Virus record (IMG/VR): IMGVR_UViG_3300021963_000830
Coordinates: 1-20,172 of that record
DNA length: 20,172 nucleotides
Direction: 5' to 3' (one strand)
Origin: a virus
Under the pieces are notes generated by a model. The model was not told where the DNA came from and ran no database searches. It was given only the letters and a program-made list of their open reading frames with translations. How positions within the stretch are numbered: the first letter of the stretch is position 1; each line of letters opens with the position of its first letter. Shown piece after piece: positions 1,759 through 17,845 of this stretch. The translations under genes and the position numbers were made by a program.

Positions 1759-1938
1759 TTAGTTGCGCCAAGTCTTATTAGCTCTGCTAATATCCTCATT
1801 AAATCGTCTAATCATTGCCATCATGGTAAGCTTCTCGACTATCTTCTTGTTCTTCTTGACCCAAGCCACGGCCTCATCAAAGGATTCTGCATCCTTCAGC
1901 CCTTCCTCAAACTTAGCCCACGCCTCTTTCTCGTTCAC
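1759..1938 (-). CDS. Small helical protein of unknown function
   Basis: I place the start at GTG 1938 (59 residues), because that GTG overlaps the TGA of the upstream nuclease gene as GTGA, matching the ATGA couplings seen elsewhere in this window. A longer form beginning at TTG 1980 (73 residues) would overlap the upstream gene by 46 bases and is less likely. The protein is charged and appears wholly helical, with an AWVKKNKKIVEKL segment in the middle. It ends in a basic stretch (RANKTWRN). No known domain is recognised. Its place between two nuclease genes suggests a role in phage DNA metabolism, which is inference from position only. Confidence 0.6.
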   Translation of the reverse strand: MNEKEAWAKFEEGLKDAESFDEAVAWVKKNKKIVEKLTMMAMIRRFNEDISRANKTWRN

Positions 1939-2318
1939 AAGCTTTGGAATACACGCCAGTTCTGACCTGTCGAGGGGCAAAGCTTAGTTGTTATGCTTTT
2001 ACATTTTGCGATGGGCAACAGCCAGAATAGATCATCGTTCATGCCCCAGCAGGCCACATAATCCACGCCACTAATAGCGCGCTTGGGGATGTTAAATCCA
2101 TTGCCACTGCTGGTAGTGAAGCGATACTTGGTGCGCCCAGGCTCTATGGCTTGGGCGGTCTTAACCTGGATGCGGTAAAACTTATTATTCTTCTCAGCCA
2201 CCACATCGTACCCCGCGAAATCCTCATAGGGCGTAAGCACGTTGTACCCGCAGCGTAGCAACGCGCCAGTAACGCGAGCTACCCCTACCGCACCAACTTG
2301 GCGTGATGTTAATTTCAT
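1935..2318 (-). CDS. PD-(D/E)XK endonuclease (PDDEXK_5-like)
   Basis: This 127-residue protein starts at ATG 2318. It matches the small nuclease family typified by group I intron endonuclease-like proteins: an opening helix (GAVGVARVTGALLRCGYNV), a YEDFAGYDVV segment carrying the conserved aspartate (D38), and the FYRIQVKTA strand in which Q-V-K takes the place of the usual E/D-x-K. The later IPKRAISGVDYVACW and LLPIAK segments also fit the family core. The canonical glutamate of the first helix is not obvious (VGVAR where GE is often seen), so catalytic competence is less certain than for the resolvase. It is the first minus-strand gene after the divergent gap with the plus-strand gene, so it may head an early-gene operon. 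Confidence 0.7.
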   Translation of the reverse strand: MKLTSRQVGAVGVARVTGALLRCGYNVLTPYEDFAGYDVVAEKNNKFYRIQVKTAQAIEPGRTKYRFTTSSGNGFNIPKRAISGVDYVACWGMNDDLFWLLPIAKCKSITTKLCPSTGQNWRVFQSL

Positions 2319-2356
2319 GCTTGACGGCTTTCGGTTTGTGCTAGAGACTTTTTCCT
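2319..2356. promoter_or_regulatory. Divergent intergenic gap between exported protein and nuclease gene
   Basis: Only 38 bases separate the divergent start codons at 2318 (minus) and 2357 (plus), so both promoters must be compact or lie within the opposite gene. On the plus strand TTGACG (2321-2326) resembles a sigma-70 -35 box, but no good -10 box lies at the right distance. No convincing Shine-Dalgarno precedes either start. Confidence 0.3.
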
Positions 2357-2722
2357 ATGAAAGCAATAATAACTATAACACTGACGGCGATGCTGATGGC
2401 ATCGGTGATGGCGGAAGATGATGATGGTGACGCTGCTGACTTTGTGGGAGCAGTGCTAAAACGCAACGGATTCTCATGTGGCCGTGGATGCGTAATATCA
2501 GAGAATGGTGGAATGGCTTATTCATCTTCATCTGGTAGGTCAATAATTTCAACTGAAGGTTTTTATTTTAAGTCTGGAAGTAGTGTTGTTGGTAAAGATG
2601 AGACATTCATATCGAAGTCTAGGAATTTCTTTTATGGAACTTCTGCAACGATTAAGGCTGGTTCTGCCTATATGAATGGAGACGCTGTTTGGGTTGGATC
2701 TCAAGAAGAGGATAATGATTAA
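2357..2722 (+). CDS. Small exported protein with four 14-residue repeats (only plus-strand gene)
   Basis: This 121-residue protein has a clear Sec signal peptide (residues 1-19; basic start, hydrophobic core, SVMA cleavage site). The mature part opens with an acidic run (EDDDGD), has a close cysteine pair (CGRGC, 41-45), and from G60 to S115 shows four consecutive units of exactly 14 residues. Each unit has a hydrophobic pair at positions 4-5 (II, VV, FF, YM) and a hydrophobic residue at position 12. This is what a small beta-solenoid or a YadA-head-like beta-roll would look like. The C-terminus is acidic again (QEEDND). It is the only gene on this strand and converges on the muramidase gene, the two stop codons sharing TTAA at 2719-2722. 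By orientation it resembles a moron: an independently expressed cargo gene that may act on the host surface. No homologue is recognised. Confidence 0.75.
   Translation: MKAIITITLTAMLMASVMAEDDDGDAADFVGAVLKRNGFSCGRGCVISENGGMAYSSSSGRSIISTEGFYFKSGSSVVGKDETFISKSRNFFYGTSATIKAGSAYMNGDAVWVGSQEEDND
2372..2380 (-). promoter_or_regulatory. Candidate extended -10 promoter for the leftward nuclease operon
   Basis: Read on the minus strand, this is TGTTATAGT, an extended -10 element (TG-n-TATAGT) one base from consensus. Transcription would start near 2365 and give a leader of about 47 bases to the ATG at 2318. There is no clear -35 box, which extended -10 promoters can tolerate. It lies inside the 5' end of the plus-strand gene. 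This is weak, motif-only evidence. Confidence 0.25.
2534..2701 (+). repeat. Four tandem 14-residue protein repeats (56 codons)
   Basis: Residues 60-115 of the exported protein divide into four 14-residue units, beginning GRSII, GSSVV, SRNFF and GSAYM. The hydrophobic columns align without gaps, but the DNA copies are well diverged, so this is an old repeat and not a recent slippage product. Confidence 0.6.
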
Positions 2723-3486
2723 GCTCCAAATATTGCGAGCCTATTTCGTATTCTGCTTTCGAGTCCACCAATAAACTTCTTTCTGGCTGGATTGCGTTCA
2801 GCCATTCGGTATTCGTCCTCAAGCTGGGCTTGGCTGGCTGCACGCATTAACGCCTTCGGGTCAACTTGGTTGATTGCAGCCAATGTCTTCGGACCTAACC
2901 CTCCATCTACCGTCACATTCTGCCCAAGTGTGTTCAGTCCTTGCTGGATGTACTTCGTTGCACCGCCCAGCCCACGATTAAACGCGAGATCCTGCGTGAA
3001 TGGCTGGAGTGCTTGTGGGAGTCTTTCGACGAGTGGCGCGGTATATCCTTGGATGTACTCTGCCGCAGCCTTCGCTCTTTCTTGCGCTGGGAGCGATGAG
3101 ATTCTTTTGAAGGCATCTGGATGATATTTGTCGTTAATACCAGCAACCTCGAAATTACCACCCATATCTCCTGCTGGCAATTTATAGACTTGCACGTTGC
3201 CTTGCTTGTCCTTCCTTGCCTCAAAATCAATCGTCTTTAACGCTGCTGTTTGTAGCGCATCTTGTTCTGGTTTTGTTTGCATAGGTTGTTGTTCCTCTAT
3301 AAATTCAAGTGTTGGCTGTTCTGGCGTGACTTGTGGCATTTGCTTGGCGTATTCTCTGGCCTTCTCGATTGGGGCAATCCTTCTTATCTCTTCTGGAACT
3401 GGCTCGTATCCAGTTCCAGTAAGTTCTCTTGCCACCATATCGTTTCTTAGGGAAACATCCTTGGATGGGTTTACTGAAAATTTCAT
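2719..3486 (-). CDS. GH108-type muramidase with C-terminal peptidoglycan-binding domain
   Basis: This 255-residue enzyme is expected to cleave the glycan strand of peptidoglycan. The GH108 core starts near residue 84: FEA with the likely catalytic Glu89, then GDMGGNFEVAGIN (106-118), matching the family's D-x-GG-x-T-x-x-GI stretch, and FNRG (169-172). A PG_binding_3-like region follows, with VDGGLGPKTL (193-202) and a basic C-terminal helix (RKKFIGGLESRI). Residues 1-80 are an extra Glu/Pro/Gln-rich extension lacking in typical endolysins. The gene overlaps the ejection protein by ATGA and has a ribosome site (GAGGTGAG) inside that gene. Context and extension suggest a virion-associated enzyme that opens the wall during DNA entry, though a role in final lysis is possible. 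Confidence 0.78.
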   Translation of the reverse strand: MKFSVNPSKDVSLRNDMVARELTGTGYEPVPEEIRRIAPIEKAREYAKQMPQVTPEQPTLEFIEEQQPMQTKPEQDALQTAALKTIDFEARKDKQGNVQVYKLPAGDMGGNFEVAGINDKYHPDAFKRISSLPAQERAKAAAEYIQGYTAPLVERLPQALQPFTQDLAFNRGLGGATKYIQQGLNTLGQNVTVDGGLGPKTLAAINQVDPKALMRAASQAQLEDEYRMAERNPARKKFIGGLESRIRNRLAIFGA

Positions 3487-6400
3487 TGCTTCTCACCTCG
3501 CTTAATTCTATTGCCATATTTTGATATAAACTGCTTCCGCACATCATCGCCTACTTGAGCATACGCACTGCGCAAGACGATTACCTTGTCTTCATCCTTC
3601 ATTCTCTTGAAAGTCTTGTCATCAAACATAACCTCTGCGGCCCTTCTGTTTGCCCTTCCGCGCATTCTTGCGTAATCCTCGTATAGTTCTGGATCAAGTC
3701 TATATTTAACATTATCCAACGTGAAATTGCGCAGTGGCTTTGGAGGCACAACGTCTCCATCATCCGTTGCTTTGAATATCTTGTAAATTCCAAGCGTGAT
3801 TGGATCGTACGAAACTTCACGGCCTTTCGTAACGTCAAAGAAGTTATATGCAATCGGATCAGCACCCTCTGGAGTTTGCGGGACTTCTCTTCCCCAGATG
3901 TCAATCCTCCTTGGCATATCTTCATCCATACTTGGCAACCTTCTGCTCAACACCTCTCCAAACACGTTAATCATTCTTTCAACGCCATCACCTGGCACAT
4001 CCTTGATCTGGAACTTATCTGGCATTGTTTCACGCATAGACCTAGAAACTGCGGTAAGAGTGTTCGGGAAAGGTATTGATGCCACAACGCCGTAGTAATC
4101 TGAAATCCATTTGTCCAGCGTTGCCCCACTTCCATCTAACATAGCCGAAAGCAAGCTATTCGTACCCTTCAAGAAGCTTTGGTTGAATGCAAACGAAAGC
4201 GTTTCTGGAAGAAGCGATGAAAGCTCAAATGATCCTTCTTTGCCTTGTTTTGTTGCATCCATAGCAGAATTAACAATCGACAAAATTGCTCCAGTAATAC
4301 CCATCTTGTCCAAGGAAATCACCTTATCCCCTGGCTCTATTGCGGTTGATTCACCATTTGCAAATCTATTTAACGCTGAAAGATTTATGTTTCTTGGTGC
4401 AAGAGTTTGATACTGTACATCCCTAATCTTTTCGGATGTCGATGGCTTTGATCCAATTATACCTTGATCTGAAAGAGTTTTTGCCACCCCAAGTAATACT
4501 GATCCAGTTAATGCTTTTCCAATAAGCATCTGTGACTTTCTGTAATCTTTTGCCACAGCAGCGCGCCGTGCTTTCTCTAAAGCATAAGGAGGAAGCGAAA
4601 ACTCAAGCATTTCGTCAATCACGTTTGCTGGTGTCTTTGCGTATGGAATGATTGATTTTCCAATCAATCTTGCTATTCCAGACCTATTCCCAGCACCAAA
4701 TAGATTTGCCGCGCTAAGTGCAGCCCTTGTCAATACCGTATCTTGCTGGAATACGGCTTCTGCCGCCTCTTGCTCAATCTTGGATAGCTGTTGCGCTGTT
4801 GGAAGACGAACTGCTGTTTGTAATGCTTTTCCAGTTAGGCCAGCTAATTGTGCTTGTTCCGATAGCAACCTAGCCTGGGCTATCCTTCTGAATGGAGCGT
4901 CACCAAGTTGCAACAAGCGCAACATAGTTTCGGCTGGAACTCCTAGCGTTGCCTCTGTTGCCAGCCGTAACCTATCCAATGCTTGAGTTGACGCACCCCT
5001 AAATCCCTTTTGAATTGGTTTCGCAAGACCCTCTCCAGTCCAGAATTGTTTGAACGCAGTAAGAGGCTTGAATCCTTTGATCTTCTCTCCAGACAACAAG
5101 CCTTCTGCACTTAATCCACGCTTTACGCCAACAAGACCCTCGCCAAGTCCACGCAATCCAGCCTTACCAGCCTCAATTGTTCTGGTTACTCCACCAGTTG
5201 GAGGGGCAATTAGCCTTGGTCCTAGCTCTTTGCCAGCAAGTTTTTGAAATGCCCTACCAATCTCCTGCGTAACAAACGCTCCTTGCCTACTAGCCATTCG
5301 CAGTGGCGAGTTAATGACGTTGCTCCAAAGATTTGTTACTAGAGATATTGGAGAAAGAAGATTGCCCTGGATTATCGTTGGTAGCGTTTCAGCAAATAGC
5401 TTTTTTGGGATAAGCCTTCCTTCAACAACTTGTAAATCATATAGTGATTTTGTGTAATTCTTTTCTGCATTGATTGCTGCCTTTATGTCAACATCATCAA
5501 GGCTATTCCTAGCCTTTTTAGCCAATGAATTAAATCTGTTTTCCGCGCTATTGGAAAGTTTCTTTAGGTTGGCAATCCTTCCAGCCATAGCCTCATCTAT
5601 TCTGTATCCACTCTTTTCAACAACCTTTGCAACCGCGCTTGCATAAGCAGTAGGTTGCATTTTGATTAGTTTGAAAACATTAAGCCTTTGACCGAGATCA
5701 GTCCCAGGCTTGGTAACCATCTCAAGATATTGGTTGGCACGAACAGCGTCACCAGCATCGGCGTACCGCTTGTACATCGTGACTTTTGCCACATCGCCAA
5801 CAATGTCATTCCTTGAGTTTGCCGCGCTTATGACATCTTCATTTGGAAGATCCAAGAATTGCTGTTCAAGCTCCTTGATTGATTTGGTCTTGTAAAGAAC
5901 ATCACCTTTAGCCACTTCACGCATCGTTGCTTCTGGAGCTAACTTCTGCTCAATGATCCTCTGTGGGGTCTTTCTAATCTTCTCGCCAACACCTGGAGTT
6001 GGAAGCTGAATGGGTTCTGCTGCAACCTTTGCTACTGCTTGCTCTGCCTTTGGAGCAACCCCTAGCGCATTCCTGATTAGCAATGTTTCCGAACCCTCTC
6101 TTGAGTGTGGCAATGTTACTCCCTCAATCCCTTGCTTTTTGAGCGAATCAAATACTGGCTTATCGAGCAAACCAGATTGAGGAGGAATTTTGTTTGAAAT
6201 TGAATTTCGCAATATATTGGCAAGCCTGACCTCTCCAGATGCCCTCAAGTCAGCCTCAACAGCAGACAAGGTTTTATAGAAATTATCTGGATTTCTCCAG
6301 TCAATGATCTTATCTGTCGGTATGTTTATCTCGTAAATTTTTCCCTGCTCTGCCAATGCTTTTTTGTATGCTTCAATTTTTTCTAGCGCAGAACTTGCTT

Positions 6401-7604
6401 CATCAAATTCCTTTTGTGACAAGAATTGGTCTGGGTTTGCAGTTGGATCTTCACGAAGACCCTTTCTGTACATATCGTAAGACAATCTCTCTTCATTTGT
6501 TAGTCCAGCCTTATTTAAGTCAACATCCTTTGTTCTTGATAACCTATATGAAGATGAAACATCTTTTGATTCAGATACAAAAACAAGTCCTCTTGCATCG
6601 CTTTTTATGTTTTCAATAGATGTTGCTGGAGATCCGTGATAAAATGTTTTTGTTGGAACATTCTCGGTTGCCGCAATAGCAGCTTTTGGAACAACAGCCT
6701 CAACCGCTGGGGCTACAGCAGGCGCAACAGCTTCAGCGGCTTGAGTGGCTGGGCGAGTTAATGCCCCACGAACTCCTTTTGCTAACCCAACCAACCCACC
6801 GCCAGTAGGCGTAAGAATGGATGCAGCCGTTGTGGTTATTGGATACTTCTCAACATCGCGCTGTAATACTTCGCTGATGCGAGCCATACGCTCTGGACCT
6901 AGCAACGCTTTGCCAGCAGCTTCTTGCCCCTTCTGGCCTGCAATAAATCCACCGATACCAGCAATTGCGCCAGTAGCCAGCTTTGGCAGTATGCCTCCAG
7001 GTGTAAGTGCGGCAGCAGTTTCAGCAGCCACAGCACCAGTCGTTGCTGGTATTACTTGGCTTGCAACAGTGCGTGCAATCGCGCCTAGTCTGCTAGGTTC
7101 TTCTGGTTCAAGTTCAAATGAGTCAACATTCCCATCCTTGTCCGCCTCGAAGCGTACTACCTTGCCGTCCTTGTTTCTTCCAATAGCAAACCCAACTCCA
7201 GTGGCCTTATCCGTTCCAGACGATACGGTTTCAATGCCAAGCCTCTGTGCTTCCTTTACGGCTGGGATTGCTGGAGTCTCAATAATGCTTTCAGCCAACG
7301 CCTGCGCTGTCGGCTTGTATCCTTCGGCTATCGTGCCATCTGGCCTGCGGATCGTACCCATTGCATCCACAGCCCTGCCAGCCTCAATGGATGCTTGCTG
7401 TGGCGTTGCGCCAGCTTGTAGTTGACGCTGTGTTTCTTGCTGTAATACAGCCTCACGCTCTGGAGAGATAACATCCTCTGGCGCGCCACCAGATGCCAAA
7501 TAATCAGCCTTGGTTAAATTGCCAGCTTCTTCTTGCGAAAGTGGAGCAAACTCTAAATCTTGTTCCTGCTCTGGAACGAACTCAAGCTCTGGCTCTATAG
7601 CCAT
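3483..7604 (-). CDS. Giant internal virion / polyvalent protein with ADP-ribosyltransferase-like domain
   Basis: This 1373-residue protein is the largest in the window. Residues 1-110 are Glu/Gln-rich. Residues 175-235 are Ala/Gly-rich with glycine-zipper character (GAIAGIGGFIAG), as in proteins that insert into membranes during ejection. Residues 321-512 resemble the ART fold of phage polyvalent proteins: YHGSP at 322-326, FVSES at 342-346, a strand GKIYEINIP near 421-429, and GIEGV...ETLLIRN at 492-512. Residues 735-1090 are a long helical part with LLSPISLVTNLWSN and SIIPYAKTPANV, reminiscent of the LPD38 polyvalent-protein-associated domain. The end is charged and basic. It follows three other ejection-type genes and overlaps the muramidase gene. 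Likely it is packaged and delivered with the DNA. The ART call rests on motif spacing; the third catalytic position (E506) is the least certain. Confidence 0.7.
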   Translation of the reverse strand: MAIEPELEFVPEQEQDLEFAPLSQEEAGNLTKADYLASGGAPEDVISPEREAVLQQETQRQLQAGATPQQASIEAGRAVDAMGTIRRPDGTIAEGYKPTAQALAESIIETPAIPAVKEAQRLGIETVSSGTDKATGVGFAIGRNKDGKVVRFEADKDGNVDSFELEPEEPSRLGAIARTVASQVIPATTGAVAAETAAALTPGGILPKLATGAIAGIGGFIAGQKGQEAAGKALLGPERMARISEVLQRDVEKYPITTTAASILTPTGGGLVGLAKGVRGALTRPATQAAEAVAPAVAPAVEAVVPKAAIAATENVPTKTFYHGSPATSIENIKSDARGLVFVSESKDVSSSYRLSRTKDVDLNKAGLTNEERLSYDMYRKGLREDPTANPDQFLSQKEFDEASSALEKIEAYKKALAEQGKIYEINIPTDKIIDWRNPDNFYKTLSAVEADLRASGEVRLANILRNSISNKIPPQSGLLDKPVFDSLKKQGIEGVTLPHSREGSETLLIRNALGVAPKAEQAVAKVAAEPIQLPTPGVGEKIRKTPQRIIEQKLAPEATMREVAKGDVLYKTKSIKELEQQFLDLPNEDVISAANSRNDIVGDVAKVTMYKRYADAGDAVRANQYLEMVTKPGTDLGQRLNVFKLIKMQPTAYASAVAKVVEKSGYRIDEAMAGRIANLKKLSNSAENRFNSLAKKARNSLDDVDIKAAINAEKNYTKSLYDLQVVEGRLIPKKLFAETLPTIIQGNLLSPISLVTNLWSNVINSPLRMASRQGAFVTQEIGRAFQKLAGKELGPRLIAPPTGGVTRTIEAGKAGLRGLGEGLVGVKRGLSAEGLLSGEKIKGFKPLTAFKQFWTGEGLAKPIQKGFRGASTQALDRLRLATEATLGVPAETMLRLLQLGDAPFRRIAQARLLSEQAQLAGLTGKALQTAVRLPTAQQLSKIEQEAAEAVFQQDTVLTRAALSAANLFGAGNRSGIARLIGKSIIPYAKTPANVIDEMLEFSLPPYALEKARRAAVAKDYRKSQMLIGKALTGSVLLGVAKTLSDQGIIGSKPSTSEKIRDVQYQTLAPRNINLSALNRFANGESTAIEPGDKVISLDKMGITGAILSIVNSAMDATKQGKEGSFELSSLLPETLSFAFNQSFLKGTNSLLSAMLDGSGATLDKWISDYYGVVASIPFPNTLTAVSRSMRETMPDKFQIKDVPGDGVERMINVFGEVLSRRLPSMDEDMPRRIDIWGREVPQTPEGADPIAYNFFDVTKGREVSYDPITLGIYKIFKATDDGDVVPPKPLRNFTLDNVKYRLDPELYEDYARMRGRANRRAAEVMFDDKTFKRMKDEDKVIVLRSAYAQVGDDVRKQFISKYGNRIKRGEKQ

Positions 7605-7607
7605 TGC

Positions 7608-8339
7608 TTACTGCCTCGCTTGCAGTCGTCCTGGCTTTCCGTTGATGTAAATAAGTTGACCAGGCTTTACGCCTGCTGCTTTTGCTTCTTGGAGGCTCTT
7701 AAAATTCTTCGGTGCTTCTGGTTGCGCTGGTGCTTGCGCTGGAGTCTCTGGAGCAACTCGCGGTGCTGCTTGCGGCGTGGCCTGTAACGGCATTGCTTCA
7801 GATTTATAATCTGGAACATTGGTTTCCATCTGACCCCCTTGTCTGTTAAAACCAAGTTCTGCAAGTTTGTTCTTATATACACCAGCTTCAGCCTCTATGT
7901 CTTTTAGCACATCAGCGCGTGGTTTTGCTCCAATCAATCCAAGTCCAGCTTCCATAGCAAATGTACGCCTATCACCCTTCGCAATTTCAATCTCTTGCTT
8001 TACGCGCTTCTTCTGTAGGTCTTTTAGCCTATCGCTTAATTCAGCGCGCTGGGTTTCAATGTCTTCATTTTGAAGACTTTGCTCGTTGCTAATCGTACTA
8101 CCAATCCCAGCAAGGTAAGGAGCAAACGCTGGGTCTTGGCTTAACGCTGGAAGATCCTTTAGCTTGCCCTTGACCTTCAATCCACCCTTTTCAAAGCTGA
8201 AGTTAACGTCTGGCTGTTCCTTGAGTGCCATTGCACGCTCTTCGAGGGCTTGCTTTCTCTGCGCTTCAGCTACGGCTTGCTTCTGAAGTTCATCTTGGCG
8301 AAACATATTCATCAATTCTGGTACATCTAATACTGCCAT
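7608..8339 (-). CDS. Coiled-coil internal virion / structural protein
   Basis: This 243-residue protein starts at ATG 8339 behind a good ribosome site (AAGGAGA). Residues 12-42 and 95-125 are highly charged Glu/Lys/Gln-rich helices typical of coiled coils. Residues 184-211 are a Pro/Ala/Gln-rich flexible linker. The C-terminal segment (212-240, with SLQEAKAAG and LIYINGKPGRL) resembles a small globular tail found at the ends of other phage structural proteins. It is 3 bases upstream of the giant polyvalent protein and 8 bases downstream of the 520-residue protein, which places it in the ejection module. The N-terminus (MAVL) is shared with the preceding gene product. The specific role is not known. 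Confidence 0.6.
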   Translation of the reverse strand: MAVLDVPELMNMFRQDELQKQAVAEAQRKQALEERAMALKEQPDVNFSFEKGGLKVKGKLKDLPALSQDPAFAPYLAGIGSTISNEQSLQNEDIETQRAELSDRLKDLQKKRVKQEIEIAKGDRRTFAMEAGLGLIGAKPRADVLKDIEAEAGVYKNKLAELGFNRQGGQMETNVPDYKSEAMPLQATPQAAPRVAPETPAQAPAQPEAPKNFKSLQEAKAAGVKPGQLIYINGKPGRLQARQ

Positions 8340-8347
8340 AAATCTCC

Positions 8348-9910
8348 TTATATCTTGATTAAGTTGCCAAGGCCAGTAGCAATCTGACCAAATTGTTCAG
8401 CACCACTCGGCTGCCTAGAAATCGCACCAACCTGCGCGCCGTATGTGCTAGACAAGTAATTAGCCTGCGATCCGTACAAGCTTGTAAACGCATTTTGCAA
8501 TGCAACAGGAATCTCTGGATTGGTTGTCTGATAGAAGTTAGCAGCCGTGGAAGGCTGTTGGTTAAATCCACCAGGCAACGCTTGATTGGCTTGGATGTAG
8601 CTCTGCATCGCGCCCTGCTGTTGGGCTGTCCGCTGGCCTGCGAGGTTATAGATGGAAGGTCCGCCACCAATGAAGTTAGCGGCTGCTCCAAGCCTATTCT
8701 GACGCAATGCATCACGGAATGCTATGTCAGCTTTGAGCGCATCACCAGTTGACTGACCAGACCCAAGGAAGCTCTGCGCCGCGCCATAGCGTGCAAGCTT
8801 GCGTTGCTCGCCAGCAGCACCAATCTGTGCGGCTTCTTGCACCGCTGGTCCAATACCAAAGATATTGCCACGGGCAGTCTGTGCTGCTCTTGCTGCCTGC
8901 TCGTATCCACGCCGTTCTTCCGCGCCAATGGTCGAGCCAAGGCGTAATTGATTAAGAGCCTCATCCTCAATGGTCTTGCGGATTTGCTCAGTCTCTGGCG
9001 TGGTCGTTGCACCAATTGGCTCAGTAGCCATCTGGCGATACTGCTGACCCAAGCCAACCGCAGTCTTGTAGGACTCTGGATCAATCTGGAAAAGCTGTTG
9101 TGAAGCACGTTCTTCGGGTAGCTGGACAAAGGATCTAAAAGATGTGATCTCCTTTAGCCCTTCGGGGCTATCCATCGTGATAGGCGTGAAATTCTTTTGC
9201 ATATCCTGCGCGCTTGTAACTGCGCTGGTTACGCTCTTCAAGTCATCGTTGAGTTGTTTGATGAATACTTCTGAGGAGGTACGCCTAGCATCGCCAGCAG
9301 GAAGATCGGCAAGAAGTTTGTTGGCCGTAGCAAGCCGTTCATTGATGCCAGCAATCTGAGCGTTGCCTCGATCAATCACGCTGTTTAGGCGAGATAGTTT
9401 TGAGTTGTTATAATCGTCAACGATCTGTTGGTCGGAGACTTGGAAGTTAAGCCTAGATCCAAGATCAGAAGATCCGTAGTTGCGATCAGCAGATAGTTGG
9501 GATAGGGCTTGGTTGAATTGTGGGCCAGCAGCTGCACCAGCAGGCGTTCCACCGCCTCCAACGGTTAATGCTTGGATCTGGGCAGCAAGAGAGTTGCGGG
9601 TATTTTCTTGTCCTTGAATTTGAGCCAAGCTTTGCTTCTGCTCTTCGTCTTTTGCGGTGTCCTTGTATTCTTGGTAGGCATTATCAAAATCACGAAGCAT
9701 TGCATTCTTATCAACAGCGTCTGCACTATATGTTCTAGGACCGCTGTTCCAATTTCCGTTGTATGTAGATTTACCAGCTAGAAAACTCTTGTAGTCAGAT
9801 GGAGGATTTGCAGACTGAAAGTGGCCTGGATTGGTGTAGAATAACTGATTCCAATTTGCTGTTGGAGCATATTTCTGATTGTAAAATTCTTCTTTAGATA
9901 AAACTGCCAT
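8348..9910 (-). CDS. Internal virion / structural protein, Gln/Ala-rich with coiled coils
   Basis: This 520-residue soluble protein has two predicted coiled-coil stretches (about 85-115 and 170-205), a glycine run near 118-121, and a long Ala/Gln-rich helical C-terminal half with short Gly-rich breaks. The ends are low in hydrophobic residues; no signal peptide or enzyme motif is present. Size, composition and position between a Pro-rich small protein and further ejection genes fit the mid-sized internal core proteins of podoviruses, but I see no direct T7-type motif. The start at 9910 belongs to a TAATATG junction with the previous gene. Confidence 0.55.
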   Translation of the reverse strand: MAVLSKEEFYNQKYAPTANWNQLFYTNPGHFQSANPPSDYKSFLAGKSTYNGNWNSGPRTYSADAVDKNAMLRDFDNAYQEYKDTAKDEEQKQSLAQIQGQENTRNSLAAQIQALTVGGGGTPAGAAAGPQFNQALSQLSADRNYGSSDLGSRLNFQVSDQQIVDDYNNSKLSRLNSVIDRGNAQIAGINERLATANKLLADLPAGDARRTSSEVFIKQLNDDLKSVTSAVTSAQDMQKNFTPITMDSPEGLKEITSFRSFVQLPEERASQQLFQIDPESYKTAVGLGQQYRQMATEPIGATTTPETEQIRKTIEDEALNQLRLGSTIGAEERRGYEQAARAAQTARGNIFGIGPAVQEAAQIGAAGEQRKLARYGAAQSFLGSGQSTGDALKADIAFRDALRQNRLGAAANFIGGGPSIYNLAGQRTAQQQGAMQSYIQANQALPGGFNQQPSTAANFYQTTNPEIPVALQNAFTSLYGSQANYLSSTYGAQVGAISRQPSGAEQFGQIATGLGNLIKI

Positions 9911-10389: not shown

Positions 10390-10758
10390 TTAAACTCTAG
10401 CCTTTCGCATAAAACTCATATAGTCGTAACTCCTTGGTTTACCAGAACGATTAAAGGTGATCCGCTTGCGAGGACCAAAACGCTCCCAAAGGAGCAACAG
10501 CAAGCATCTCAAGGATTTAGCACCTTTTGAGGAGATAGTCAAATCAACAAACACATTCTCACCATCTTCGCTATGCACATAATGGTTAGGCTCTTGCCCA
10601 TCCTTGATACACCTAGCCAAAGCTACGCCAGCAATCCCATCCTTATCCTCGACAATGCCAACCATCCCTTGCTTCTCAAACCAACCAAACCACTCAGCCA
10701 GGTTAGGCCACATAGCCTCTGGAACACCGCTTTGCTCAATGTACTCAACAGCCGTCAT
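10390..10758 (-). CDS. Small conserved phage protein, possibly GNAT-like
   Basis: This 122-residue protein begins at ATG 10758, overlapping the nozzle gene stop as ATGA. It opens with a helix (TAVEYIEQSGVPEAMWPNL), then strands around GMVGIVEDKDGIAGVALARCI and ENVFVDLTISS, then a helix (LRCLLLLLWERFG) and a basic end (SYDYMSFMRKARV). The alternation of a helix, paired strands with the GVALAR step, a VDLTIS strand and a following helix is suggestive of a reduced GNAT acetyltransferase, but the acetyl-CoA loop (Q/R-x-x-G-x-G/A) is not visible. It could equally be a small assembly protein. It sits between nozzle and ejection genes. Confidence 0.5.
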   Translation of the reverse strand: MTAVEYIEQSGVPEAMWPNLAEWFGWFEKQGMVGIVEDKDGIAGVALARCIKDGQEPNHYVHSEDGENVFVDLTISSKGAKSLRCLLLLLWERFGPRKRITFNRSGKPRSYDYMSFMRKARV

Positions 10759-12605
10759 ATTGTTTGCTGGATCTGAACTGTATCTGGATTGGCAGCAGCC
10801 GTGATCTGGCGGATAGCCATCTTGTTTGCTGGCGTGGAAATCTTGATGTTAAGCAAACGCCACTTCTCGTATTTGCGCAGGTCACTGGCAAGCTTCTTTT
10901 TGACTGATGTTGGAAGTACTGCTGGTAGCGTGAATGGAAGCGTGAGAACTGAACTTGCTATATTGATGTTTGATGCAACTTCAATATCGCCAACATCAAT
11001 ATCGCGCTGGATTGCAACAGTAGCATCATTTGAAAACGAATTGTCAAAGATGACCTCGAAATAGCTTCCATACTTTAGCGAGAAAGGATCGCCAAAGTTG
11101 AAGTCCTTGGTGCGCACATAAGACTCGTAATCAGTTCCAGCGTCTTGATAGTCTGCGGACGTAGTGCCAGCTGGAGATTTGTAGCCAGCATACTTCTCGA
11201 TGATGCCATTGGTTTTCTTGAACATCGCCCTAGAGCCTTCTTGATTAAAGTTCGTAAGCGTAAACTGCATAACCTGAGGACTCCAAGTTCCCTCGAATGC
11301 GCTTAACGCAGTATTGTAAACCAAGAGCGTGTCGTTGTAATCGTTTGATCCAGTAGGTATGGCAAGGAAGTAGCGGTTATCGTAGTAAATTGCAGTAGCT
11401 ACCCTAATAGAATCCGTATTGATGCTCTGGATCACATCCTTGACTATCTCCGAAACTGGTATGCCAACCGAGCTAAAGTCATCCGCAACTGACCGAACAA
11501 GCGATCTAATACCGTTATCGGATAGGAACAGAATGTCGCTGCTTACTTGTACAGCCGTTCCAGTTGCCACGCATCCAGTATTGTTTGAAATGATTGAAAC
11601 AATCCAATCCGCGCCAGAGGTGGCATCGCTTGGAATGTCAACCTGGAACACTCTGCGCTTCTTGAATACGATCAGCCTATTCTTGTAGTAAGGCACAACT
11701 GCCGTAATCTGATCGCCGTCATCGCCGTTGACAACAATGCTGTTGGTTGATGCCCATACAGAAGGATCAAGAATATCGGAGGCATAAAGAGTGTTCCGAT
11801 TAGCACCAGAGCCAACGCCAAATAATCTGTTTTCAGCATTAACCAAAATCCTAATCCCAGCTGGAGGCGCGCTGACTGTGGCCGTTGCAGTAGCACCAGA
11901 CCCATTCCCAATGATTGTAACGGTAGGGGCAGTTGCGTAACCAGACCCACCATTAACAACGGTAACGCCAGTAACAGCACCGCCAGCGACAAGCGTAATC
12001 AGTTCTGGCATTGTTCCGCCAAGCGTAGGGCCAGTAATTATTGCAGTTGCGCTGGTGTAACCGCTACCGCCAGTTGTTACTGTGATCGCCCTAACCTTTC
12101 CGCCCTGCCTCTCAACCGCAGTTCCATCCCAAAAGTGTAGGTCACTATCGGAATCAGATAGAAACATCTTGTCAACAAACTGTGCAAAAGATACCTCAAT
12201 GTCTTCGGCAACGCTGTAGCCATCTCGCCATTGGCTGGTGGCTGCTGTCCAAGTTATGTTTGTAGCACTCCACGTTGAATATGGAGTGTGAGCAGTTGCG
12301 CTTCCGTTTGATTCAATGCTGTAAAATCTACCGCCAGTAACAGTCAGTAATTGCTGGTATGCTGACGTTTCGTAGTATCGCATCCCGCCAACCGAAGTTA
12401 CCGCGCTGGTTGCACCAGTTGCAAAGCTTGTTGCACCAACGCGAGTTTCAAGATTGCCCTTTGGAGAAAGGGTCATATTGTACAACTCTTGGACTTGGTT
12501 CTCGGCTAGTAGGTCGGATTGTAGACCGCTGGCTTGACCGCCAGTAAAATTGCGTATTCCGTCAAAGGACAGAACATCGTCCAAATTGTCGCTGTAATAA
12601 GGCAT
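10755..12605 (-). CDS. Tail nozzle / tail tubular protein B-like, with inserted GGSGY repeats
   Basis: This 616-residue protein starts at ATG 12605 behind a strong ribosome site (AAAGGAGG). The N-terminus has the layout of podovirus nozzle or stabilisation proteins: F-x-GGQ-x-S-x-L-x-x-x-LL near 20-33, then an N-M-x-L-x-x-x-G-x-L-x-x-R-x-G stretch (43-58). The body is beta-rich and resembles a propeller (SVGGMRYY, YSIESNG, MFLSDSDSDLHFWDG, ENRLFGVGSG). Residues 168-247 carry two GGSGY-type repeats that look inserted into the propeller. The gene directly follows the tail adaptor gene, as expected for an adaptor-nozzle pair extending the portal. The family call is by layout, not by a single diagnostic motif. 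Confidence 0.68.
   Translation of the reverse strand: MPYYSDNLDDVLSFDGIRNFTGGQASGLQSDLLAENQVQELYNMTLSPKGNLETRVGATSFATGATSAVTSVGGMRYYETSAYQQLLTVTGGRFYSIESNGSATAHTPYSTWSATNITWTAATSQWRDGYSVAEDIEVSFAQFVDKMFLSDSDSDLHFWDGTAVERQGGKVRAITVTTGGSGYTSATAIITGPTLGGTMPELITLVAGGAVTGVTVVNGGSGYATAPTVTIIGNGSGATATATVSAPPAGIRILVNAENRLFGVGSGANRNTLYASDILDPSVWASTNSIVVNGDDGDQITAVVPYYKNRLIVFKKRRVFQVDIPSDATSGADWIVSIISNNTGCVATGTAVQVSSDILFLSDNGIRSLVRSVADDFSSVGIPVSEIVKDVIQSINTDSIRVATAIYYDNRYFLAIPTGSNDYNDTLLVYNTALSAFEGTWSPQVMQFTLTNFNQEGSRAMFKKTNGIIEKYAGYKSPAGTTSADYQDAGTDYESYVRTKDFNFGDPFSLKYGSYFEVIFDNSFSNDATVAIQRDIDVGDIEVASNINIASSVLTLPFTLPAVLPTSVKKKLASDLRKYEKWRLLNIKISTPANKMAIRQITAAANPDTVQIQQTI
11865..12104 (-). repeat. Two GGSGY-type beta repeats inside the nozzle gene
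   Basis: Residues 168-247 of the nozzle-like protein hold two copies of a motif of the form V-x-x-(I/V)-T-V-(T/V)-x-GGSGY-(T/A)-(S/T)-A followed by T-I-(I/T) strands. The same short repeat is known from many phage and bacterial surface proteins. The second copy runs on into an Ala/Thr strand before the propeller resumes at PPAGIRI. Confidence 0.6.
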
Positions 12606-15772: not shown

Positions 15773-16495
15773 TTAAACTACTGTCCAGACGCTTCCGTCT
15801 TGCACTGTAACAGTGCCAGTTCCGATTGTGATCGGTCCTGCGGATACTGCGTTCTTGTTGGTTGAGATTGTATATGAAGTAGTCACAGTTGTATCGTTCT
15901 CCCAAAAGATTTTATCTGTTCCGCCACCCTTCGCGCCAGCAGCAGCGGCAACAGTTGACATTGTAGTAACTCTTCCCTTGGAGTCAACTGAGATGATCGG
16001 TACTGATTCAGTCCCACCATAAGTTCCAAGAGTAACGCCGCTTGTGCCAAGAGTACCAGTTCCGCTACTGATGGTGAAGTCACCAGCCAGGGTAGTTGTG
16101 AAGTTAGAGATTGTTCCAAGCGTGCTGTTAACCCTACCGCTGTAAGTTCCAGATGTAATCGTTGCAGTGCTGATGGTTGATGTTGAAATTACTGCCGTTC
16201 CAATGGTCGCAGTGCTGGCGGTAACATTGCCAGATAGATTAAGGTTAAGATAAGTTCCGAAGGTGAATGCATCTTCAACCAAGTTCTGAACCGTCACCTT
16301 GCGTGGGGCTAGTGAAGAGTCGACGCTGTCTGGAGCGATGAGAAGCAAGTCAGCCGTACCAATGGTTGTGATCTCTTGCTGGTTCTTGATGATCGCAGAA
16401 TTGACAAGCGCGGTATCAATAAGATTATGCAGGCCAGACGCAGTAACCGTACCGTTGGTAGAGAAGGTCTGCTGACGATTGATTATGTTTGCCAT
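15773..16495 (-). CDS. Tail fibre protein with Thr-rich shaft
   Basis: This 240-residue protein begins with a helical head (NLIDTALVNSAIIKNQQEITTIGTADLLL, 24-52) that includes a marker-like DSSLAPRKVTVQNLVED stretch. Next comes a Thr/Ile-rich shaft (91-120; TASTATIGTAVISTSTIST) typical of repetitive beta fibres, then GTYGGTESVPIISVDSKGRVT (157-177). It ends in IFWENDTTVTTSYTI followed by NAVSAGPITIGTGTVTVQDG and SVWTVV (196-240). The last segment is a very common C-terminal tip in phage fibres. The start is one base after the upstream stop (TAATATG). The gene is flanked by fibres of similar make-up. Confidence 0.72.
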   Translation of the reverse strand: MANIINRQQTFSTNGTVTASGLHNLIDTALVNSAIIKNQQEITTIGTADLLLIAPDSVDSSLAPRKVTVQNLVEDAFTFGTYLNLNLSGNVTASTATIGTAVISTSTISTATITSGTYSGRVNSTLGTISNFTTTLAGDFTISSGTGTLGTSGVTLGTYGGTESVPIISVDSKGRVTTMSTVAAAAGAKGGGTDKIFWENDTTVTTSYTISTNKNAVSAGPITIGTGTVTVQDGSVWTVV

Positions 16496-16496
16496 A

Positions 16497-17153
16497 TTAA
16501 GCTGTTGTCCTTAGTGCAAGCGCAGAAATTGTGCCAGATGTTATGGTTGAAATTGTTGTTGTTGGATTAAATATTGTGTACCTGCAAACATCGCTTGCAG
16601 CCACAGAGAATGATGACGATGGATATGAACCAGTAAATGCAATGTTTGTTTGTCCAATAACAGTATCGCCAGCAACTACTCCAGACATTGCAAATGTTCC
16701 AGTTGATGCTGAAGATGCAGATGTCATTGTACCAAGGGTTACTGCTCCAAGTGCAGCCGATCCAAAGCTGGCTTGGGTAATGCTAGGACCAGCAGAACCA
16801 AGGCGAAGTGTTCCAGTAGTTGTTCTTGAGGTTACGGAAAGCGTTCCAATCGTGGATGTGTTTACGCTGGATGTTGCAACAGTCTGCGTATTGATGCTTG
16901 CAGTACCAATCGTAGCCGTACCAGTGGACGCTGTAAGGCTTGATCCAAGGGTAACAGCACCAGTAAGGGTTGAGTCTCCAGTAACCGAGAAAGAGCCAGT
17001 GCTGCTTACGCCAGTGGTGGAAAGGGATAGCGCGGAAGAGGTGTCATCTCCATCGGTAACAACCTGCAAAGCACCACTAAGCCCACCAGTGGTGAATGTC
17101 TTAAGAAGCTGTGCATAGCTACTGCTAATGGTCTGTGTTCCAAGTGTGGGCAT
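16497..17153 (-). CDS. Tail fibre protein with Thr/Ser-rich shaft
   Basis: This 218-residue protein starts at ATG 17153 with a good ribosome site (AGGAGA). The N-terminal part (SYAQLLKTFTTGGLSGALQV, then VTDGDDTSSALSLST) is a module shared with many phage fibres. Residues 52-115 are a shaft of short Thr/Ser/Gly strands (TLTGAVTLGSSL, TATIGTASINTQ, SVNTSTIGTL) that resembles the shaft of the next gene's product. The C-terminal half includes VAGDTVIGQTNIAF (160-173) and a final strand-rich tip. It is the first gene after the membrane cassette, and its own ribosome site suggests it restarts translation there. No enzymatic motif is seen. Confidence 0.68.
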   Translation of the reverse strand: MPTLGTQTISSSYAQLLKTFTTGGLSGALQVVTDGDDTSSALSLSTTGVSSTGSFSVTGDSTLTGAVTLGSSLTASTGTATIGTASINTQTVATSSVNTSTIGTLSVTSRTTTGTLRLGSAGPSITQASFGSAALGAVTLGTMTSASSASTGTFAMSGVVAGDTVIGQTNIAFTGSYPSSSFSVAASDVCRYTIFNPTTTISTITSGTISALALRTTA

Positions 17154-17161
17154 TTAGTCTC

Positions 17162-17410
17162 CTAGTTAGAAAGTCGGTTTTTTAGGACATCCCAGGCCAT
17201 TGAGCAAGCAAGCCCTATCAGCCCAGCTACAGCCAGAACCTTCGTCCGCAGGTGTTCTAGCGCACCTAATCTATTAGCAACATCCCCGTGAAAAGCAAGT
17301 GACCTTTCGATCATAGATATAAGCGTCATCTGGCGTTCTTCCATCCTGGCAAGTCGCTCTGATACGTTGGCAACCTTATCCCTAAGATCCGAAACCTCAT
17401 CAAGACTCAC
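17162..17410 (-). CDS. XhlA/holin-like protein: coiled coil plus C-terminal membrane segment
   Basis: This 82-residue protein starts at GTG 17410, with GGAGG nine bases upstream inside the end of the previous gene, which it overlaps by 11 bases. The N-terminal half is a coiled coil (LRDKVANVSERLARMEERQ). Residues 56-75 (KVLAVAGLIGLACSMAWDVL) are a single membrane helix, followed by a short basic end. This layout, a coiled coil followed by one C-terminal membrane helix, is that of XhlA-type proteins found in phage lysis cassettes. A holin or holin-partner role at the inner membrane is likely but not proven. The GTG start may keep expression low, as suits a lysis timer. Confidence 0.6.
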   Translation of the reverse strand: MSLDEVSDLRDKVANVSERLARMEERQMTLISMIERSLAFHGDVANRLGALEHLRTKVLAVAGLIGLACSMAWDVLKNRLSN

Positions 17411-17678
17411 GACCTTTACCCTCCAAGTATCTTAGTGAAACTGCAAGATGGACAACGGCATCCGTAACTTCTTCCCGATCCCGACCTTCTTCGACAATCC
17501 GCTTGATGCTTCTGTTGACAGATAGGAGATGCTTTACCTTGCCAATGTACTTCGTCTCCTTGACCATGTTGTTGTTCTCCACGGCAAACTTTAACGCCTC
17601 CTTGAAACAAGCGTATTCCTGCCCCGTCATTAAGAAACGCAAACTCAAATTGGTCAGCCACATGGCGATGCGTTTCAT
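17400..17678 (-). CDS. Small helical protein in the membrane cassette, unknown function
   Basis: This 92-residue protein starts at ATG 17678, which overlaps the TGA of the lipoprotein gene as ATGA; this decides the frame over an alternative open frame in the same stretch. The product is basic and mostly helical (KRIAMWLTNLSLRFLM at the start, then KEALKFAVENNNMVKE and DAVVHLAVSLRYLEG). There is no clear membrane segment, although the first 16 residues are amphipathic or hydrophobic enough to touch a membrane. I do not recognise a family. By position between a lipoprotein and a holin-like gene it may belong to the lysis function. Confidence 0.6.
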   Translation of the reverse strand: MKRIAMWLTNLSLRFLMTGQEYACFKEALKFAVENNNMVKETKYIGKVKHLLSVNRSIKRIVEEGRDREEVTDAVVHLAVSLRYLEGKGRES

Positions 17679-17845
17679 TTGACATTACCAGATTTTACTT
17701 GACCAGCATCGTAGGCCGCACCCATATCTCCGTAGCGTGGCAATAACTTTTCTTGGATTGTTTTAGTATCGCCAAAGCACCCAATCATACATACTGGAAG
17801 GAAAAGGACAAGAAACAAGGCAACGATGGGCATGGCGATTCTCAT
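17675..17845 (-). CDS. Small predicted lipoprotein (possible spanin-like)
   Basis: This 56-residue reading frame starts at ATG 17845, overlapping the previous gene's TGA as ATGA, and its own stop overlaps the next start the same way. This double coupling is good evidence that it is real. The N-terminus has a basic start (MR), a hydrophobic core (IVALFLVLFLPV) and a lipobox-like MIGC with the lipid-bearing Cys at residue 23. The mature part is 34 residues, hydrophilic, with DTKTIQEKLLPRYGD. Small phage lipoproteins of this kind include the outer-membrane spanin subunit (Rz1), which is usually proline-rich; this one is not, and no inner-membrane partner is obvious. It could alternatively be an exclusion lipoprotein. 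Confidence 0.68.
   Translation of the reverse strand: MRIAMPIVALFLVLFLPVCMIGCFGDTKTIQEKLLPRYGDMGAAYDAGQVKSGNVK

Follow-up and report, generated by a model that had tools for sequence, protein, structure and literature searches.

An exported phage protein of an unrecognised family with matched alleles, likely a new superinfection-exclusion protein

The window, by which we mean the whole virus sequence of 20,172 bases analysed here, carries its genes on the minus strand except for one, P, which runs the opposite way as the preliminary description had noted, see Table 1. P lies 38 bp from gD, and its -35-like box begins 3 bp from the gD start codon. The ATG is found 9 nt past the -10-like box with no Shine-Dalgarno sequence, and the transcript is possibly near-leaderless. 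At the other end, the stop codons of P and gE overlap by 4 nt in most types of P (see below) and abut in the D types. The upstream box, TTGAC-N15-TAGAGA, is common to nearly all members of the family, and so is the signal peptide.

Table 1. Features of the P locus and of the second variable region, with positions in the window.
Feature	Position	Strand	Remarks
Promoter-like element upstream of P	2321..2347	+	TTGACG-N15-TAGAGA; conserved TTGAC and AGA.TTTT; putative function
P	2357..2722	+	Repeat protein, predicted to be exported, 121 aa, type A0; from ORF translation, homologues and dN/dS
Signal peptide of P	2357..2413	+	Residues 1-19, predicted cleavage between VMA and E; common to nearly all mature types; exchange boundary
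Four 14-residue units of P	2543..2710	+	Residues 63-118
gD	1935..2318	-	PDDEXK_5 nuclease; divergent neighbour of P; no association with P type
gE	2719..3486	-	PG_binding_3 / muramidase-like; convergent with P, stop codons overlapping
gF	3483..7604	-	Large virion protein, 1373 aa; putative ejection protein; variable central insert
g3	7608..8339	-	Putative ejection protein, 243 aa; segment matching P type: N-terminal ~40 aa (about 8220-8339)
g4	8348..9910	-	Putative ejection protein, 520 aa; segment matching P type: C-terminal ~30 aa (about 8351-8440), but neither the region before it nor the N-terminus
Head-closure protein	10755..12605	-	'Phage stabilization', P22 gp10-like; marks the site of the ejection cluster; no association with P type

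We call gF a virion protein on account of its C-terminal half, which hits phrog_22602 ('virion structural protein') at 1e-46 as well as structural proteins of Cellulophaga phages. In podoviruses the ejection proteins come after the head-closure gene, as gF does here. Neither g3 nor g4 belongs to a recognisable family, and from their position near the head-closure gene and the virion protein gF we infer that they are ejection proteins. The central insert of gF, about 600 bases mid-gene, varies independently of its surroundings, and the protein is 1113-1630 aa long in other contigs. Since a distant homologue in Pseudoalteromonas phage Y3 is annotated as an ADP-ribosyltransferase, the insert may be an exchangeable cargo domain that is injected. 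The first ~100 residues of g4 (9600-9910 in the window) are hypervariable, cassette-like and unlinked to the P type, and identical versions recur across phages of differing P type. The tail-fibre genes at 15773-17153 on the minus strand are rich in short threonine/serine repeats (ATIGT, STATIS), and their lengths differ between relatives. Among the tail-fibre genes, at 17162-17845 on the same strand, a small protein with a hydrophobic segment is encoded together with a small lipoprotein-like ORF (LPVCMIGC); these may be a holin and a spanin. No separate endolysin is found nearby, so gE may be the lysis enzyme.

The signal peptide proposed in the preliminary description was recognised again by inspection, with 19 residues (MKAIITITLTAMLMASVMA in the ORF translation). 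By inspection it is also the sole hydrophobic segment of P, and the predicted cleavage precedes Glu/Asp, with no Cys at +1 and no lipobox. On the strength of this signal peptide, P is predicted to be exported by Sec and to be periplasmic. The median dN/dS of the mature protein is 0.09 in type A0 and 0.06-0.17 in five other types, in no case near 1, which confirms that P is a genuine coding sequence. The signal peptide is relaxed, with a dN/dS of 0.4-0.7. The CGRGC pair pointed out earlier is present at residues 41-45, but it is restricted to type A0 and appears as CGKNC in one related type, and it is no family-wide feature.

Residues 63-118 accommodate four 14-residue units without gaps, as had been described. 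For the P of the window, lag 14 is the top-scoring lag (p=0.004 for that lag alone) and the hydrophobic autocorrelation at this lag has p=0.0007, but after a search over lags 5-30 the p-value is only 0.11. In eight of ten other family members tested the p-value at lag 14 is below 0.0004, and the 14-residue period is therefore real for the family. According to the AlphaFold2 monomer models, P forms pairs of strands, 4 and 6 residues long, that recur with the 14-residue period. The repeats of the window's P are modelled with block-mean confidences of 72-89, those of type C3 with 79-94.

In two IMG/VR scans more than 100 metagenomic relatives of P turned up in distinct contigs, and all those with flanking sequence sit in the same antisense slot, between the divergent gD and the convergent gE. 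When loci were fetched by gD only, a P-family gene was found in the slot in 80 out of 80, three of which end shortly past the start of P, and two further types surfaced. Thus, P is apparently a core gene, rather than sporadic cargo, of an uncultured podovirus-like, mostly freshwater phage group. As in the preliminary description, no family could be recognised: there is no relative in Pfam (up to E=10), PHROGs, PDB sequences or 50,697 isolate phages. A GTDB scan also found none, but it used a single peptide pattern, TAMLMASV, and is weak evidence for absence from bacteria. Neither an integrase nor a resolvase was found in 14 contigs of 27-39 kb, which may be incomplete, and the phages are therefore probably virulent. 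The nearest isolate terminases, at 35-37%, are those of Akkermansia phages, too distant for a host assignment.

The mature protein falls into about 13 discrete types, A0 (the window), B4, C2, C3a, C3b, C7, D1a, D1b, E5, E8, F6, G9 and H10. Identity is about 90% within a type and 20-45% between most types. The related pairs are D1a/D1b (0.64) and C3a/C3b (about 0.7), while C7 and E8 are each about 0.5 identical to their respective nearest type. In pairwise comparisons the DNA identity drops sharply to about 50% in mature P, between flanks of 85-97%.

To see what the P type tracks, we compared the identity of mature P with that of each gene in 44 longer contigs. There is no association with its own signal peptide (rho 0.04), gD (0.06), g4 as a whole (0.07), the head-closure protein (-0.02) or the tail fibres (-0.07 to 0.04), while gF and g3 reach 0.81 and 0.84. 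Distant P types swap the whole block of P, gE, gF and g3, and the informative test is therefore the one within a single background class in which gE and gF are alike. A one-to-one matching of P with gF was considered and dropped, as one gF class serves several P types and the similar D1a and D1b (64%) lie beside unrelated gF.

The background class consists of 27 contigs of types C2, C3a, C3b, C7 and E5. Here the first ~40-45 residues of g3 follow the P type (delta +0.46, p=0.0002; partial Mantel 0.49, p=0.001), and the deltas are +0.05 for gE, +0.04 and +0.17 for the N- and C-terminal parts of gF and +0.08 for the g3 C-terminus. The g4 C-terminal tail, which abuts g3, behaves in the same way. 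Together the g4 tail and the N-terminal ~40 residues of g3 form a second variable island 5.5 kb from P, and gF, between the two islands, is partly shuffled relative to P. On a tree of gE and gF the P type changes at least nine times; C3a falls in four separate places and keeps one g3 N-terminus throughout. The independent pairs agree in 5/5 and 4/4 cases, too few to reach p<0.05 alone. A clear example is the pair of contigs L205 and L212, with gE 95% and gF 92-97% identical, P 28% and the g3 N-terminus 38%.

The same pairing is seen when the P type is predicted from the nearest neighbour among 69 contigs, with 67 cases scored. The g3 N-terminus and the g4 tail are each correct in 64 of the 67, gE in 50 and gF in 51-52, while within g4 the region just before the tail gives 11 correct cases and the N-terminus 10. 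With gE predicting this poorly, the idea that P targets the muramidase-like gE was dropped. Contigs obtained after the rule had been noticed follow it: G9 has its own new g3 N-terminus in 5/5, later members of E8, E5 and D1b agree with those seen before, and a second C7 retains the MPAIT start. One clear mismatch between the P type and the g4/g3 ends was found, in contig G003. The MPA[I/L]T class of g3 N-termini is shared by four P types and the SYGP class by C3a and F6; the P type thus predicts the g4/g3 ends, while the reverse is not strict. Statistically, then, the P type is tightly paired with the g4 tail and the g3 N-terminus, about 5 kb away, and we regard this as a solid new result.

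We propose that P is a periplasmic, allele-matched superinfection-exclusion protein acting on the DNA-ejection proteins, and give this reading a probability of about 0.5. After infection P would be expressed from a dedicated promoter, opposite in direction to the other genes, and exported to the periplasm by Sec. There its repeat domain would recognise the g4 C-terminal tail and/or the g3 N-terminal segment that a second, same-type virion releases, and the binding would stop the DNA-ejection channel from forming. Distinct P types would recognise distinct g4/g3 ends, splitting the phages into exclusion groups. A protein made after entry cannot serve the entry of the first virion, and an exported one cannot join cytoplasmic assembly. 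With neither of these roles available and with matched virion segments, action on incoming virions is the simplest explanation. The pairing thus favours the superinfection blocker among the options of the preliminary description; the contact with g3/g4 and the exclusion itself are what we infer from it, the exclusion role at about even odds. Against this reading stand the code that is not one to one, the mismatched contig G003 and the universality of P, a property that known accessory exclusion genes, sieA for one, lack.

The pairing could also arise without contact between P and the g4/g3 ends, if both bind one host envelope factor and P masks this factor, as Llp of T5 masks FhuA. The same covariation is then expected, and the sharing of one class of g3 N-termini by several P types is explained. 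However, a change of host factor should drag the tail fibres along, and these show no association, which makes this explanation unlikely. Linkage alone, with P functionally unrelated to g4/g3 and P, gE, gF and g3 swapped as a block between conserved flanks, is rather more doubtful. Block exchange is obvious between distant types, and when all genomes are pooled the partial correlations spread over both the C- and N-terminal parts of g3. Within the background class, however, gE and gF are shuffled relative to P and the match with g4/g3 persists, although single crossovers in gE or gF would break it; the single mismatch mentioned above is the only clear one.

P might instead protect its own cell, by neutralising its own g3/g4 or gE leaking into the envelope before lysis, as a matter of immunity or lysis timing. 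Such a role would fit a universal gene that is convergent with the muramidase-like gE and cognate with the g4/g3 ends, but besides the poor prediction of the P type from gE, the C-terminal domain of gE is about 80-90% alike across many P types, and we consider it improbable. The preliminary description had pointed to YadA-type beta-roll heads and had named a secreted adhesin-like protein and a host-surface modifier among the possible roles of P. P does have an export signal, and YadA-type heads share its 14-residue period; the paired strands of the monomer models may form either a roll or a single-layer sheet. No match to the YadA fold was found: Foldseek searches of the P models against PDB and BFVD gave nothing at E<=0.001, with no YadA head among the matches listed. 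YadA-type heads also have a coiled-coil stalk and a C-terminal membrane anchor, whereas P ends after its repeats, and the Pfam signature of the YadA head repeat is absent from P, which hits no Pfam family. Nor does P covary with the tail fibres, and one narrow scan gave no hit in bacterial genomes. We consider an adhesin or host-surface modifier very unlikely.

Work on superinfection exclusion mostly deals with single proteins. For the question of how its specificity evolves, the P family offers a natural set of matched alleles, in an apparent core gene that the family libraries searched had missed. As the presumed target segments are narrowed to 30-40 residues, the question becomes directly testable. 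More tentatively, and at somewhat less than even odds, we suggest a form of self-recognition among lytic phages, in which about 13 P types are tuned to the ends of two virion proteins and an infected cell is closed only to its own type. If so, exclusion groups would persist and be exchanged through recombination at two islands that lie 5.5 kb from each other.

One of the closest known systems is SieA of P22, whose gene has the last ejection gene as its neighbour and is flanked by genes 16 and 9 (PMC10883804). P has an analogous position, if the putative ejection role of its neighbours is right. SieA blocks DNA injection, and escape mutations map to the C-terminal regions of the ejection proteins gp16 and gp20 (PMC10883804). 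The gene is present in 22 of 66 P22-like phages, in diverse types of about 25% identity; two types that were compared showed no difference in target specificity, and the authors remark that it is difficult to picture how the interactions persist in the face of so much diversity (PMC10883804). However, SieA belongs to temperate phages and spans the inner membrane several times, whereas P has predicted beta repeats and no hydrophobic segment beyond its signal peptide. No integrase was found in the phages that carry P, and the P types match the ends of putative ejection proteins. In Ltp of the Streptococcus phage TP-J34, the repeats act near the C-terminus of the tape measure protein (PMC3952083). 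Ltp is a lipoprotein with helical repeats from a phage of a Gram-positive host, while P lacks a lipobox and is predicted to be beta.

As the P-carrying phages are probably virulent, T4 and T5 are a nearer comparison than the temperate systems. Llp of T5 is a lipoprotein that blocks the receptor, while P does not covary with the tail fibres. Like P as predicted, it is exported, and it is an exclusion protein of a virulent phage (PMC9586334). Spackle of T4, a small protein made early and found in the periplasm, binds a virion protein and so blocks superinfection (PMC7677548). P, with a signal peptide by inspection, is predicted to be periplasmic as well. Spackle targets the lysozyme domain of gp5, whereas the muramidase-like gE is associated with the P type more weakly than the g3/g4 ends are, and P has no PHROG, Pfam or significant PDB sequence match that would place it in the Spackle family. 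No sequence relationship was found between P and SieA, Ltp or Spackle. These three proteins act on ejection, tape-measure and tail-lysozyme proteins, respectively, and provide working precedents for the mechanism proposed for P.
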